Source of the DNA: Halogeometricum sp. S3BR5-2
GTDB taxonomy: Archaea > Halobacteriota > Halobacteria > Halobacteriales > Haloferacaceae
NCBI RefSeq assembly: GCF_031624635.1
Contig: NZ_JAMQOQ010000001.1
Location: forward strand, 558,001-622,000
Length of the DNA: 64,000 nt
Direction of reading: 5' to 3'
Part shown: positions 4,389 through 48,697 of the stretch, piece by piece
Numbering within the stretch: the first letter of the stretch is position 1
How the letters are laid out: the number at the start of each line of letters is the position of its first letter
Notes under the pieces: model-generated
What the model saw: only the letters and a program-made list of their open reading frames with translations
Database searches by the model: none
Told to the model about the DNA's origin: nothing
Program-made: the position numbers and the translations under genes

Positions 4389-5219
4389 ATGCTACCGCCC
4401 GTCGCGGACAACTTCGTCGCCGGAGAGGACGCCGAGACGATGCTCGACTACGTCGCGGAGACGAACGGGGAGGGCATCGCCGGCATCGCGAACCTCCTCG
4501 GCGAGCACTACGACGAACGGTCCGACGCGGCCGCGGATACGGAGGCGTACCTCGAACTCGCGGAACGCATCGACGAACGTGGTCTCGACTGCTGCGTCTC
4601 GGTGAAGCCCTCGCAGGTCGGTCTCGACGTCGGGAGCGACGTGTTCCGGCGCAACCTCGGACGCATCGTCGAGCACGCGGCAGAGCGCGGCGTCTTCGTC
4701 TGGGTGGACATGGAGGACCACGAGACGACGGACGCGACGCTCGACGCCTTCGAGGAGAACGCCCGCGAGTACGGCGACGTGGGCGTCTGCGTGCAGGCGA
4801 ACCTGAAGCGCACCGGCGAGGACTTGGAGCGACTGGCGGACGTGCCCGGGAAGGTCCGCCTCGTCAAGGGCGCCTACGACGAACCGAAGACCGTGGCCTA
4901 CCGCGAGAAAGAGACGGTGGACGAGAAGTACCGCGAGTACATCGAGTACGCCTTCCGGGAGTTCGACGGCGGCGTCGCCGTCGGCAGCCACGACGTCGGG
5001 ATGATAAACCACGCCGTCGACTGCCACCGCGAGTACGGGACGCCGTTCGAGGTGCAGATGCTGATGGGCGTCCGCGAGAACGTCCAGCGACGGCTCGTCG
5101 GGTCGGTTCCGGTCTATCGATATATCCCCTACGGGCCGAAGTGGGTCTCGTACTTCGCGCGGCGGGTGCGCGAACGCAAGGAGAACGCCCTGTTCGCGTT
5201 GCGCGCCGTTCTCGGCTGA
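4389..5219 (+). CDS. Proline dehydrogenase
   Basis: This is a stand-alone FAD proline dehydrogenase of 276 residues, first step of proline breakdown: L-proline to 1-pyrroline-5-carboxylate, with electrons passed to the respiratory chain. The TIM-barrel strands are visible: CCVSVKPSQVGLDVG, GVFVWVDMEDHETTD, VGVCVQANLKRT, VRLVKGAYDEPK, and the C-terminal FEVQMLMGVR. VPVYRYIPYGPKWVSYFARRVRE is the RxxxYxPYGxxWxxYxxRR-type substrate-binding end. Length fits archaeal and Gram-positive monofunctional enzymes. The next two genes are an HTH-10 regulator and a P5C-dehydrogenase-type aldehyde dehydrogenase, which together make a catabolic module. Confidence 0.92.
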   Translation: MLPPVADNFVAGEDAETMLDYVAETNGEGIAGIANLLGEHYDERSDAAADTEAYLELAERIDERGLDCCVSVKPSQVGLDVGSDVFRRNLGRIVEHAAERGVFVWVDMEDHETTDATLDAFEENAREYGDVGVCVQANLKRTGEDLERLADVPGKVRLVKGAYDEPKTVAYREKETVDEKYREYIEYAFREFDGGVAVGSHDVGMINHAVDCHREYGTPFEVQMLMGVRENVQRRLVGSVPVYRYIPYGPKWVSYFARRVRERKENALFALRAVLG

Positions 5220-5220
5220 G

Positions 5221-5239
5221 TTCCTTTTCTTCTTCTTCT
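5221..5239 (+). terminator. Pyrimidine-rich terminator after proline dehydrogenase
   Basis: Directly after the TGA, the plus strand runs TTCCTTTTCTTCTTCTTCT, almost pure T/C. Archaeal polymerase stops at T-rich tracts without needing a hairpin. It separates this gene from the convergent regulator whose stop is at 5242. Confidence 0.6.
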
Positions 5240-5241
5240 GC

Positions 5242-5982
5242 TTAGGCGCCCTCGTCATCCGGGTCGAGGAGCTTCGACTCGGCCTTCCGCAGGTGTTCGA
5301 GCAGCGTCGTCTTCGAGACGCCCGCCTCCGCGGCGAGTTCGCGCGTCGAGACGCCGCGCGGCCACTGGTAGTACCCCGATTCCCGCGCGAGTTCGAACAC
5401 CTCCCGCTGCGTCGGCGTCAGCGTCCCGAGGCGGCGCGCCCGCTCCGAATCGACCGTCTCCGAGGAGGCGATGCGCTCGACGGTTATCTCCGCGCCGGAC
5501 GCCTCGCGGACCGCGTCCAGCGCCGTCCCCACCTCGCCGCGTTCGCCGGTGAAACAGACGTCCCAGTACTCCGTGCCGTCCTCGATCCGCGTCGGCGCGC
5601 TGTGGACGAACCCGTGTTCGAGCAGCGTCGGACAGATCATCTCCCGCGGGTCGTACTCCAAGAAGAACTCGCGGGCGACCTGACCGGGGGCCACCCGCGC
5701 CGCCGTCCGCCCGAACCGCTCCTGTAGCTCCCTGACCTCGCCGCCGTACTCGGAGGCCTGAATCTCGTCCAACAGCGCCTCCACCTCGGCCGCCGAGTCG
5801 CCGTAGGCAGTGAACAGCCCGTTCACCGTGCTGGTCTCCGCGCCCGTCTCGGGCGCGTGGTAGATGGCGTGGGCGAGGATGCCCCCCGGGCGTCGCTTGG
5901 TCGACTCTATCGCCCAACACCGCGGGTGCCAGAGGTCGAGCGTCAGACGCGTCCCCGTCTGCGTTGCTCCGCGTGCGCTCAT
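5242..5982 (-). CDS. HTH-10 (bacterio-opsin-activator-type) transcription regulator
   Basis: This 246-residue regulator starts at the ATG at 5982 (MSARGATQTGTRLTLDLWHP). The N-terminal half (residues 1-150) is the ligand-sensing type seen in haloarchaeal Bat-like proteins, with the typical opening LDLWHPRCW. The C-terminus carries the HTH-10 domain: LTPTQREVFELARESGYYQWP then STRELAAEAGVSKTTLLEHLRKAE. The gene lies between proline dehydrogenase and P5C dehydrogenase, convergent with the first and divergent from the second. I infer that it controls proline degradation, perhaps sensing proline or P5C. Activation or repression cannot be told from sequence. Confidence 0.9.
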   Translation of the reverse strand: MSARGATQTGTRLTLDLWHPRCWAIESTKRRPGGILAHAIYHAPETGAETSTVNGLFTAYGDSAAEVEALLDEIQASEYGGEVRELQERFGRTAARVAPGQVAREFFLEYDPREMICPTLLEHGFVHSAPTRIEDGTEYWDVCFTGERGEVGTALDAVREASGAEITVERIASSETVDSERARRLGTLTPTQREVFELARESGYYQWPRGVSTRELAAEAGVSKTTLLEHLRKAESKLLDPDDEGA

Positions 5983-6097
5983 ACACCACGCTCTCGCGCT
6001 ACCGAGTGATATATCGTTCGTTGTTCTCACACCGCTCGCGGCGGGCGGCGCCGCACCGTCGGGGCCGCACCGTTCCGCCGTCCATGGGAGGGAGGCC

Positions 6098-6107
6098 GAT
6101 TATTAAG
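6098..6107 (+). promoter_or_regulatory. TATA box of the P5C dehydrogenase gene
   Basis: GATTATTAAG is the only AT-rich block in the 148-bp gap after the divergent regulator. It is centred about 28 bp before the ATG at 6131, so transcription would begin at or next to the start codon and the message would be leaderless. Confidence 0.6.
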
Positions 6108-6130
6108 TGAGGTTCGAGAATACTTCCTGT

Positions 6131-7660
6131 ATGGCGAATCACGACGAAGTCTACCGACACTACATCGACGGCGAGTGGACCGACGGGATGGGCGAGGAGA
6201 CGTTCGAGTCGGAGAACCCGGCGACGGGGGAGTCGCTGGGCGAGTTCCGCCGGGGCACGCCGGACGACGTGGACGCGGCGCTGGCGGCCGCCACGGAGGC
6301 CGAAGAAGAGTGGCAGGCGCTCTCGCACATCGACCGCGCGGAGTACCTCTGGGACATTTACCACGAACTGAAAGAGCGTCACCAGGAACTGGGCGAGGTC
6401 GTCACGAAGGAGTGCGGCAAGGAGATTAGCGAGGGGAAGGCCGACGTCACCGAGGCGTGGCACATGGTCGAGTGGGCCGCCGGCGACGCCCGCCACCCGA
6501 AGGGCGACGTGGTCCCCTCCGAGATTCCCGCGAAGGACGCCTACATGCGCCGGAAGCCCCGCGGCGTCGTCGGCTGTGTCACCCCGTGGAACTTCCCGGT
6601 CGCCATCCCCTTCTGGCACATGGCAGTCAGCCTCGTCGAGGGCAACACCGTCGTCTGGAAACCCGCCGAGCAGACGCCGTGGTGCGGACAGATCATCGCG
6701 GAGATGTTCGAGGACGCGGGCATCCCCGACGGCGTGTTCAACATGGTGCAGGGCTTCGGCGACGCCGGAGAGGCCATCGTCGACGACGACCGCGTCGACA
6801 CCGTCCTCTTCACCGGGTCCGCGGAGGTCGGACAGGAGATCGCCTCGAAGGTCGGCGGTCAACCCGGCAAACTCGCCGCCTGCGAGATGGGCGGGAAGAA
6901 CAACATCGTCGTCACCGAGGAGGCCGACCTCGACGTCGCCGTCCACTCGGCGGTCATGTCGTCGTTCAAGACGACCGGGCAGCGCTGCGTCTCCTCGGAG
7001 CGACTCGTCGTCCACGAGGACGTCTACGACGAGTTCAAAGAGCGGTTCGTCGAGAACGCGAAGAACGTCTCCGTGGGTGACCCCCTCGACGAGGAGACGT
7101 TCATGGGACCGCTCATCGAGGAGGGTCACAAGGAGAAGGTGACCAAGTACAACGAACTCGCCGAACGCGAGGACGTGAACGTGCTGGTCGACCGCACGGA
7201 ACTCGACGCCGACGAGATTCCCGAGGGCCACGAGGACGGCCACTGGGTCGGTCCGTTCGTCTACGAGGCCGACGCGCACGAGAACCTCCGCTGCACGCAC
7301 GAGGAGGTGTTCGGCCCCCACGTCGCCCTCCTGAAGTACTCCGGCGACATCGAGGAGGCCGTCGACATCCACAACGACACCGACTACGGCCTCGCGGGGG
7401 CCATCATCTCCGAGAACTACCGGCAGATAAACTACTTCCGCGACAACGCCGAAATCGGCCTCGCCTACGGTAACCTCCCGTGTATCGGCGCGGAGGTGCA
7501 CCTGCCGTTCGGCGGCGTGAAGAAGTCGGGCAACGGCTACCCCAGCGCTCGCGAGGTCATCGAGGCCGTCACCGAGCGGACGGCGTGGACGCTGAACAAC
7601 TCGAAGGACATCCAAATGGCGCAGGGACTCTCGGCGGACATCAAGACCCGCGAGGACTGA
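6131..7660 (+). CDS. Aldehyde dehydrogenase, probable 1-pyrroline-5-carboxylate dehydrogenase
   Basis: This 509-residue NAD(P)-linked aldehyde dehydrogenase would oxidise glutamate semialdehyde (open form of P5C) to glutamate. The start ATG at 6131 gives MANHDEVYRHYIDGEW; a GTG at 6107 lies inside the TATA box and is rejected. Motifs: CVTPWNFPVAIPFWHMA, VWKPAEQTP, LFTGSAEVGQ, CEMGGKNNIVV (active-site Glu region), GQRCVSSERLVV with catalytic C286, and EEVFGPHVALL. The family alone would allow other aldehydes as substrate. The assignment to P5C rests on the adjacent proline dehydrogenase and regulator. Confidence 0.88.
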   Translation: MANHDEVYRHYIDGEWTDGMGEETFESENPATGESLGEFRRGTPDDVDAALAAATEAEEEWQALSHIDRAEYLWDIYHELKERHQELGEVVTKECGKEISEGKADVTEAWHMVEWAAGDARHPKGDVVPSEIPAKDAYMRRKPRGVVGCVTPWNFPVAIPFWHMAVSLVEGNTVVWKPAEQTPWCGQIIAEMFEDAGIPDGVFNMVQGFGDAGEAIVDDDRVDTVLFTGSAEVGQEIASKVGGQPGKLAACEMGGKNNIVVTEEADLDVAVHSAVMSSFKTTGQRCVSSERLVVHEDVYDEFKERFVENAKNVSVGDPLDEETFMGPLIEEGHKEKVTKYNELAEREDVNVLVDRTELDADEIPEGHEDGHWVGPFVYEADAHENLRCTHEEVFGPHVALLKYSGDIEEAVDIHNDTDYGLAGAIISENYRQINYFRDNAEIGLAYGNLPCIGAEVHLPFGGVKKSGNGYPSAREVIEAVTERTAWTLNNSKDIQMAQGLSADIKTRED

Positions 7661-7749
7661 GGCCGAGTCGACGGCCCGCGGCGCGGCCCGCTTCCGCTCT
7701 TCTCTTCGTCCCGTTCCGGACGGTCGCGTGGCTCGAGAGCGTGAAGTAC

Positions 7750-7950
7750 GAACCGCGTGCGGCGTTTCCTTGCGCCGCGTTGCGGTTCTGGGCGCGCGGT
7801 TGAGCGGCGCCGTGATGCGGTTGCCCCCGCCGGGTTCGAGGGCGTGACCGCGTGACGCCGCAGCGTCGATGCCGTAGCGGACCCCGTTCACTACGGCCGT
7901 GGTGCGGCGGGTCGTGCCGACTAGACGAGAAAAGCGTCTGTACGTCGGCA
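7750..7950 (-). ncRNA. Candidate structured RNA in a 475-bp gap
   Basis: The gap 7661-8135 holds no convincing gene on either strand. Within it are nested inverted repeats. TGCCGAC (7915-7921) pairs with GTCGGCA (7944-7950), enclosing AGACG (7923-7927) with CGTCT (7935-7939). GCCGTAG (7871-7877) pairs with CTACGGC (7891-7897), TGCGG (7816-7820) with CCGCA (7858-7862), and GAACCGC (7750-7756) with GCGGTTC (7782-7788). On the minus strand a TATA-like CTTTATCC (7973-7980) would start a transcript at about 7950, the outer edge of the first stem, which is why I favour that strand. I do not see RNase P or SRP RNA landmarks. The 3' end is arbitrary. The remaining bases (7661-7749, 7981-8135) show nothing else. 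Confidence 0.3.
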
Positions 7951-7972
7951 ATACCGGCTAAGTGTGGCAAGT

Positions 7973-7980
7973 GGATAAAG
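7973..7980 (-). promoter_or_regulatory. TATA-like box facing the candidate RNA
   Basis: Minus-strand CTTTATCC is centred about 27 bp before base 7950, where the long stem begins. It is the best AT-rich match to an archaeal TATA box in this GC-rich gap. It is inferred by spacing only. Confidence 0.35.
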
Positions 7981-8135
7981 CCTCCGGGTGATGCGAAGAC
8001 GCGGCACACCGTCGGGGCGCGCGGTCGGTCCCGCACGGACGAACGACGAAGAACGGAAGGAACGGAAGACGGGGAAGAACGGAGAACTCGGGCGTGGTCA
8101 GAGGGGTGAGAAGAGACGAGCGAGTACGGGGACGG

Positions 8136-8567
8136 TCAGGCCGTCGTCTCCAGTTCCTCGCGGAGCGCCGCCTCCAAGTTGTCGAGTTCGCGGTCGAGGT
8201 TGCGCTTGAAGAAGCTCTCGACGCCGGGGAGTTTGCCGTCGACGACGAACTCGTTGTGCAGTCGACTGCCCGTCTCCGTCTCCTCGATGGTGTGCTCGCC
8301 GGTGACGCGCATCACCTTCGAGGTGCCGACGAAGCGGACGAACCGGGGCGGGTCGCGTTCGACGTCTTCGGTCTCCACCGTCGCGGTCGACCGCACGAGG
8401 GGGATGGGAAGCGACACCTCCCACGTCGCCTCGTGCGTCTCCGGGTCGACCTCGTAGCTCTCGACGACGCTGATGGCCTCCGCGCGTCGCCCGGGGTCGG
8501 CGATGAACTCCCAGACTGCCTCCGGCGGGGCGTCGAACTCGAACGCTCTGCTGACGCGGACGGTCAT
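8136..8567 (-). CDS. SRPBCC (START/CoxG-like) ligand-binding protein
   Basis: This 143-residue single-domain protein has the SRPBCC helix-grip fold pattern. It opens with VRVSRAFEFDAPPEAVWEFIADP and the usual Ala-Pro-Pro-x-x-x-Trp-x-Phe-Ile-x-Asp block. A central strand series with RFVGTSKVMRV follows. It ends with the long C-terminal helix VESFFKRNLDRELDNLEAAL. The family binds lipids or other hydrophobic ligands in the cytoplasm and includes CoxG and polyketide cyclases. The ligand is unknown. It precedes the small HTH gene in opposite order on the same strand (that gene is upstream). Confidence 0.85.
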   Translation of the reverse strand: MTVRVSRAFEFDAPPEAVWEFIADPGRRAEAISVVESYEVDPETHEATWEVSLPIPLVRSTATVETEDVERDPPRFVRFVGTSKVMRVTGEHTIEETETGSRLHNEFVVDGKLPGVESFFKRNLDRELDNLEAALREELETTA

Positions 8568-28492: not shown

Positions 28493-28566
28493 GGGCGCGT
28501 GGCCTAGCGGATCAGGGCGAGGGGTTCCTAACCCCTCGATCGCGGGTTCGAATCCCGCCGCGCCCG
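28493..28566 (+). tRNA. tRNA-Arg (anticodon CCT)
   Basis: A full 74-nt cloverleaf is visible. The acceptor stem is GGGCGCG/CGCGCCC with discriminator G. The anticodon stem AGGGG/CCCCT encloses loop TTCCTAA, anticodon CCT (reads AGG). T-stem GCGGG/CCCGC carries loop TTCGAAT. CCA is not encoded. No intron is seen. A 6-bp stem with a 5-nt loop (28579-28595) follows closely and may terminate transcription. Confidence 0.93.
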
Positions 28567-48358: not shown

Positions 48359-48625
48359 GCATTTGGCATATCGGGAGCGACGGTGTTCCGACGAGAGAGT
48401 GCGTCCACGGCATCGGAACGGCGGCGGGACCCGCTCCGTGTCTTCGACTACGGCCGATAACCTCCGTTCTCTCACAGAATCGCAAGCAGGCGGCGACCCG
48501 CGCTTGAAATTCTGTTGAACTCCCTTCTGTGAAGGAGTAATCTCTAAGCCAGAAATGGCGAATCCGTCCGTCTCAGAGCCCGTACCTTGCGGTCGTGAAC
48601 CCTTGTTATGACGGAGGTATAGTAG

Positions 48626-48697
48626 TGGACTCGCCGGGATTTGAACCCGGGGCCTCTCCCATGCCAAGGGAGTGATCTACCACTGATCTACGAGCCC
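48626..48697 (-). tRNA. tRNA-Ala (anticodon GGC)
   Basis: On the minus strand a 72-nt cloverleaf is complete: acceptor GGGCTCG/CGAGTCC (one G-T wobble) with discriminator A, anticodon stem CTCCC/GGGAG around loop TTGGCAT (anticodon GGC, reads GCC), T-stem CCGGG/CCCGG with TTCAAAT. There is no intron and no encoded CCA. The 298-bp space between it and trkH holds the trkH promoter and a stem (CTCCC/GGGAG-type, 48519-48537), otherwise nothing clear. Confidence 0.93.

Follow-up and report, generated by a model that had tools for sequence, protein, structure and literature searches.

The window, i.e., the whole stretch of 64,000 nucleotides of Halogeometricum DNA analyzed here, contains an intergenic gap of 475 bp (7661–8135) without a gene. 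The gap is bounded by an open reading frame for an aldehyde dehydrogenase of the P5CDH type and one for an SRPBCC protein, in agreement with the preliminary description, which had proposed a possible uncharacterized structured RNA on the minus strand at this place. The aldehyde dehydrogenase belongs to a proline catabolism cluster (4389–7660; Pfam), together with PRODH (Pro_dh) and an HTH_10 regulator on the minus strand. The inverted repeats noticed earlier in the gap are real and, read on the minus strand, correspond to a two-stem hairpin (P1), to P2, P2b and P3, and to a further hairpin closer to the aldehyde dehydrogenase (Table 1).

Table 1. Predicted RNA gene, its parts and its flanking genes, in window positions.
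Feature	Positions	Strand	Description and basis
Aldehyde dehydrogenase, P5CDH type	6107–7660	+	convergent neighbor; Pfam
Further hairpin	7750–7788	−	strong; between the RNA and the P5CDH end; recognizable within the genus only
Predicted non-coding RNA	7820–7949	−	5′ end G7949; 3′ end undetermined, not before the end of P3
P3	7823–7843	−	GCCCUCG/CGGGGGC, loop AACCCGG
P2b	7854–7867	−	GACGC/GCGUC; possible small hairpin, lineage-specific, uncertain
P2	7871–7897	−	arms GCCGUAGUG/CGCUACGGC, loop AACGGGGUC; covariation
C-rich linker	7902–7911	−	CCCGCCGCAC; P1–P2 spacer, mostly conserved in the close family
P1	7916–7949	−	outer stem GCCGAC/GUCGGC, inner stem AGACG/CGUCU; covariation
P1 loop	7928–7934	−	CUUUUCU; CUUUUCU or CUUUUCA across 49 loci
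TATA-like word	7975–7979	−	TTTAT; −30 to −26 relative to the predicted start
BRE-like stretch	7980–7988	−	CCCGGAGGC; abuts the TATA word upstream; sequence
SRPBCC (Polyketide_cyc2) gene	8136–8567	−	upstream neighbor, conserved; Pfam

Taken as a single sequence, the gap offers little. The minus-strand fold is mildly better than shuffled sequences (z −1.90, with 6/200 shuffles as good), and the opposite strand gives z −1.59 with 17/200 shuffles as good. Of the hairpins, P1, P2 and P3 form in the fold of minimum energy; P2b does not, and its 3′ side pairs with the linker instead. The list of inverted-repeat pairs for the gap region has 15 entries. Since such repeats are common in GC-rich DNA and the fold only mildly beats shuffles, the evidence first put forward for this RNA is weak when taken alone. 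The same weakness would suit a conserved DNA element, or a set of chance GC-rich palindromes, from which no RNA is made. That reading is virtually untenable in the face of compensatory changes in relatives and of a promoter spacing that is fixed and has strand polarity.

The compensatory changes come from two alignments. Model R1, which is structure-aware and runs from P1 to P2 without the promoter, was built from 27 close-relative sequences, i.e., 29 sequences minus two with long inserts (L007 and L052, the latter also with a doubtful P2); L009 and L016 were unused. In its alignment 99.1% of 540 cells are paired and 9/20 pairs show double changes among the 27 relatives. None of 500 shuffles was as good on four of the five measures; on the fifth (further pair types) 63/500 were. 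When the pairing partners are slid, pairing falls to 20–55%. The P2 helix has 100% of its cells paired in the 27 sequences, with double changes in 4/9 pairs. Model R2 covers promoter and P1 and was built from 96 diverse sequences, picked because they match an exact pattern of loop and TATA word. Its P1 alignment has 94.7% of 1041 cells paired and double changes in 6/11 pairs over these 96 sequences; again, on four of the five measures no shuffle among 500 did as well, and on the fifth 3/500 did. Covariation is strong in the outer stem, where one pair is AU in 48 sequences, GC in 38, GU in 4 and something else in 6. A lack of covariation in relatives had been named in advance as a refutation, alongside the lack of a transcript; covariation is present for both P1 and P2. 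Judged from this covariation and from the fixed promoter spacing, the predicted helices P1 and P2 are well beyond chance.

P3 is supported in another way. A stem of 5–10 pairs around CCCGG is found in 27/27 close relatives, with at least 7 pairs in 24, and the arms come in 26 different pairs among the 27. In control windows from the same loci, 120/2415 reach 5 pairs and 24/2415 reach 7. Outside the close family the 3′ part drifts: judged by eye, P2 and P3 are placed differently in other families and may even be absent, and some genera have P2 without the CCCGG hairpin. At the place of P2b, the Haloferax locus (L221) has a different and longer hairpin by eye, and no counterpart of the 7750–7788 hairpin was seen in that locus; this last hairpin may be part of the tail of the RNA or a terminator for the convergent genes. 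The part after P1 is rich in C. The 90 nt following P1 have frequencies of 0.436 for C and 0.284 for G (11970 bases from 134 partly redundant copies), and in the linker CCGCC plus one later C are invariant (27 sequences, alignment A1). A kissing interaction between the P2 loop (CGGGG) and the P3 loop (CCCG) is possible in the close family. It cannot be tested by covariation because both motifs hardly vary, and we leave it as an idea.

The preliminary description had pointed to a TATA-like word at the right distance from the outer stem on the minus strand, and comparison bears this out: the word stands 30–26 nt before P1, and its spacing is conserved. We examined 49 loci with an R1 hit, namely 40 places picked for spread from the R1 hits listed plus 9 others (at least 5 of the 49 are R1 seeds). 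A TATA-like word lies between −34 and −22 in 48/49 of them, and at exactly −30 in 40; six control windows gave 0–1 of 49. The only locus without the word (L132) is an extra copy in an assembly with 11% contamination (G070). Because R1 does not include the promoter, this spacing is independent evidence that transcription starts at P1. Upstream of the TATA-like word, CCGG(A/T)GG is kept in many close relatives at the position of the BRE-like stretch. The predicted start falls on a TG or CG step in 47/49 loci. The exact ends of the RNA remain inferred: the 5′ end at G7949 follows from the TATA spacing and the pyrimidine–purine step T7950/G7949, without transcript data. A scan for sigma-70 promoters and T-run terminators found none.

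The loop of P1 hardly varies. Among the 49 loci it reads CGCTTTTCTC in 41 and CGCTTTTCAC in 8, and the corresponding motif forms are CGCUUUUCUC (41/49) and CGCUUUUCAC (8/49). The seeds of R2 and of alignment A3 were chosen by the loop motif and provide no independent evidence on this point, so loop invariance was judged from the loci found by R1; it must be kept in mind that R1 itself rewards the loop.

BLAST with the core matched 43/170 genomes of the family, at least three of them (G134, G150 and G172) off target, i.e., elsewhere than the model hit. R1 matched 153/170 family genomes and 196/391 genomes of the class, many of the latter weakly. R2 matched 376/391 haloarchaeal class genomes (E ≤ 0.01), representing 82/86 genera, most of them at 1e-8 or better; among good genomes the count is 365/377. 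Some genomes have two or three R2 matches, the second ones being weak among the scores listed (best 4e-5). At least three matches, those in G270, G279 and G031 (E 0.001–0.008), are probably due to chance; one hit in G270 (L273) and one in G279 (L272) were inspected. When 10 of the 15 genomes missed by R2 were rescanned at E ≤ 1, nine gave a hit, and no best hit looked like the RNA by eye. One genus, g36, has no convincing copy in its 8 genomes (G039, G270, G279, G287, G289, G354, G416 and G425), reflecting either loss or strong divergence. The RNA is thus not indispensable everywhere. In a draw of 246 genomes from the phylum, R2 matched 41 of about 43 genomes of the same order and, weakly, 4 of about 203 outside it, a division taken from a kinship-ordered list in which the last 181 genomes, all non-matching, are not itemized. 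Of the four matches outside the order, the best one (L253), which is the one inspected, is a bare P1-like stretch. Viral contigs scanned with the promoter and P1 pattern gave no match.

A class-wide distribution, with one strong match per genome and a conserved promoter, is also what a diverged housekeeping RNA of known type would display, be it RNase P RNA, SRP RNA or an H/ACA or C/D guide. The preliminary description could not match the gap to RNase P or SRP RNA by eye and suggested a search of Rfam. With Rfam 15 the gap has no match, either at the gathering score or at E up to 10, the three matches of the window all lying elsewhere; the loci of six relatives have no match either. Archaeal RNase P RNA (RF00373) and archaeal SRP RNA (RF01857), which resemble the gap RNA in being structured and widely conserved, do not match the gap; each was found in one copy elsewhere in this genome, at G000:C2 100800–101334 and G000:C1 715977–716287, respectively. 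C/D box guide RNAs have the consensus boxes UGAUGA (C) and CUGA (D), both absent by eye from the minus strand of 7949–7820. H/ACA guides have a long hairpin with a k-turn, an ACA box and complementarity to rRNA; P1 has only 34 nt and no evident k-turn, and an ACA follows P1 in some relatives only (no guide search was carried out). We consider a known housekeeping type highly improbable. Among other RNA features of the window are an S15-Halobacteria ribosomal protein leader (RF03143; 48801–48865, plus strand, 82.1 bits), a tRNA-Arg (CCT) at 28493–28566 on the plus strand and a tRNA-Ala (GGC) at 48625–48697 on the minus strand.

Gene order was compared by a pattern scan of named genomes, which returned 87 loci. 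Of these, 86 belong to Halobacteria or to uncultured archaea; the remaining one, in Loktanella (L212), is a chance pattern match and was dropped. L204, in which the end of the locus cuts the RNA, was left out of one of the counts. At least 2 kb of upstream sequence was available for 55/86 loci, and at least 3 kb of downstream sequence for 55/86. Within 2.5 kb upstream, 48/55 loci have an SRPBCC gene on the same strand; DUF7123 is an upstream neighbor in 48/55 and a carbon–nitrogen hydrolase in 34/55. On the downstream side, a convergent P5CDH gene within 2.6 kb is found in only 21/55. With the upstream genes kept and P5CDH so often absent from the 2.6 kb downstream, the locus looks orthologous throughout the class and untied from proline catabolism. 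This bears on the possibility that the element acts in cis, either on proline catabolism, by regulating P5CDH as its 3′ UTR or as an antisense RNA, or as a leader for a gene downstream. P5CDH is convergent and close in several genera, among them Halogeometricum, Haloferax and Halobacterium, which suits such a role; the RNA nevertheless persists in the many loci without P5CDH within 2.6 kb. The Haloferax locus has the order DUF7123, SRPBCC, RNA, DUF7526, P5CDH (convergent), HTH and PRODH. Its genome (G064, genus g37) is taken by us to be Haloferax from a PCNA near-identical to PDB 3hi8, the H. volcanii protein. There, a DUF7526 ORF (L221:9373–9690, minus strand) lies downstream of the RNA on the same strand, and read-through into this gene is therefore possible. 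It is the one same-strand follower examined; not all loci have their downstream genes annotated. In our window the next gene is convergent, which leaves nothing to lead, and a leader or riboswitch was rejected on the loci examined. Overall, a role in cis is very improbable.

From the comparison of genomes, which supports the gene, its strand, the P1–P3 fold, the promoter and the spread, we consider it very likely that minus-strand positions 7949 to about 7820 form a stand-alone gene for a structured RNA, with its own archaeal promoter and orthologous across almost all sampled Halobacteria.

The transcript of one member may have been detected before. A small RNA of H. volcanii, sRNA500 (HVO_1187s; CHR 1080188–1080342/F; 155 nt), was identified by RNomics, prediction and sequencing, according to the accessible part of the source (PMC3956466). 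In the same organism HVO_1191 is proline dehydrogenase and HVO_1189 a P5CDH homolog, as far as the available text goes (PMC6801745). The order of the Haloferax locus fits this HVO numbering, and the H. volcanii copy is very probably sRNA500; gene order and numbering are the whole basis, since the sequence of sRNA500 was not seen. By inference, HVO_1187 would encode the SRPBCC protein and HVO_1188 the DUF7526 protein. Going by the HVO numbers, both RNAs would occupy the same place in the gene order, adjoining HVO_1189/HVO_1191, and the size of 155 nt is consistent with the gap RNA. The length is weak support because, in what is accessible of its description, the library was cut to 130–460 nt (PMC3432209). 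The two differ in that sRNA500 was found by BLAST in 0 other haloarchaea and was listed as not conserved in 2014, and the accessible part of that report describes neither a structure nor a family for it (PMC3956466). If sRNA500 is the gap RNA, the result of zero genomes conflicts with the breadth of the family observed here. The idea of an uncharacterized structured RNA on the minus strand therefore stands in its structure, supported by covariation, its strand, its conserved promoter and its lack of an Rfam match; what may not stand is that it was uncharacterized as a transcript. We conclude that the transcript is probably already known from H. volcanii and that the family is, as far as we searched, new, as are its structure and breadth. 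No description of any of these three was found in the titles and opening lines of abstracts that were searched, supplementary files and most subscription papers being outside the search. In the available text of the earlier survey, haloarchaeal sRNAs are extremely poorly conserved, with 22/27 confined to H. volcanii (PMC3956466). One haloarchaeal sRNA, probably from that very set, would now belong to a nearly class-wide family. Such a family may serve as an evolutionary anchor for archaeal sRNA function and as a model for annotating hundreds of genomes.

Regarding function, both partner and mode of action are inferred. The 5′-terminal P1 combines a CUUUUC(U/A) loop that hardly varies with a stem that co-varies, and is followed by a C-rich linker and drifting GC hairpins. 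As the most likely mechanism, we hypothesize that P1 would dock a conserved RNA-binding protein, and that the variable C-rich part may act in trans on RNAs or scaffold a particle. This protein-docking mechanism is a tentative proposal, which may well be wrong, and neither a partner nor a target was found. An Sm-like protein (Lsm) would be the first candidate because the loop is U-rich, which is a guess. In 3 of 24 genomes (G002, G009 and G010), the exact complement of the P1 loop region, 11 bases long, is confined to the RNA gene itself, so no rRNA, tRNA or mRNA of these genomes has a full match. Taken together, a near-invariant loop across the class and the absence of a universal complement point to recognition by a protein.

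Alternatively, the RNA could be an sRNA that works by antisense pairing in trans: with either the P1 loop or the C-rich linker as the pairing region, it would repress or stabilize a set of mRNAs without a protein dedicated to it. The 11-mer CGAGAAAAGCG, complementary to the loop, has 76 matches in the 24 genomes, a count that takes in the RNA genes, and the reversed control has 25; this excess of about threefold is only partly due to the RNA genes and leaves room for antisense targets. The C-rich sequence after P1 would also suit base pairing with mRNAs. A loop nearly invariant throughout the class is difficult to reconcile with mRNA targets that diverge, and no exact 11-base complement is common to all genomes, although a shorter seed is not excluded. 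The deletion strain of sRNA500 is viable, with swarming at 29% and a yield of 129% with paraquat, as given in the part of the study available (PMC3956466). If sRNA500 is the gap RNA, these effects on swarming and stress suit a regulator, and viability favors regulation over an indispensable housekeeping task. The existing strain would also make the hypothesis testable in a tractable organism. On balance, we regard the antisense reading as possible and rather unlikely.

Returning to a protein bound by P1, two further conjectures can be made. In the first, haloarchaea would share a lineage-defining RNA–protein particle in which the near-invariant 5′ hairpin of the RNA binds a protein dedicated to it; the particle would regulate globally throughout the class, with a reach like that of 6S or Y RNA in bacteria. 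We hold this to be doubtful and nonetheless worth stating. In the second, P1, with its 5-bp stem and 7-nt CUUUUC(U/A) loop, would resemble the anticodon arm of a tRNA in its geometry and serve to decoy a factor that binds or modifies tRNAs, which we find very improbable.

Finally, other non-coding RNAs of haloarchaea were compared with the gap RNA. The H. volcanii rancRNA_s194 is likewise small and intergenic, with 97 nt by 3′-RACE in the accessible part of its description (PMC6104027). Unlike the gap RNA, it lies at HVO_2011s2 and is reported, in the available text, as not conserved (PMC3956466); it was ruled out because its locus is another. The H. volcanii sRNAs reported as conserved in the portions of the literature available (H225.2R, hts10, htsf359 and htsf242) also belong to other loci by their HVO numbers. 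Beyond Haloferax, the RNA locus is carried by Halobacterium salinarum DSM 3754 (L219). A halite metatranscriptome yielded 22 ncRNAs common to several species of Halobacteria, without an assigned function in the accessible part of the report (PMC7002113), and the gap RNA may be among them.
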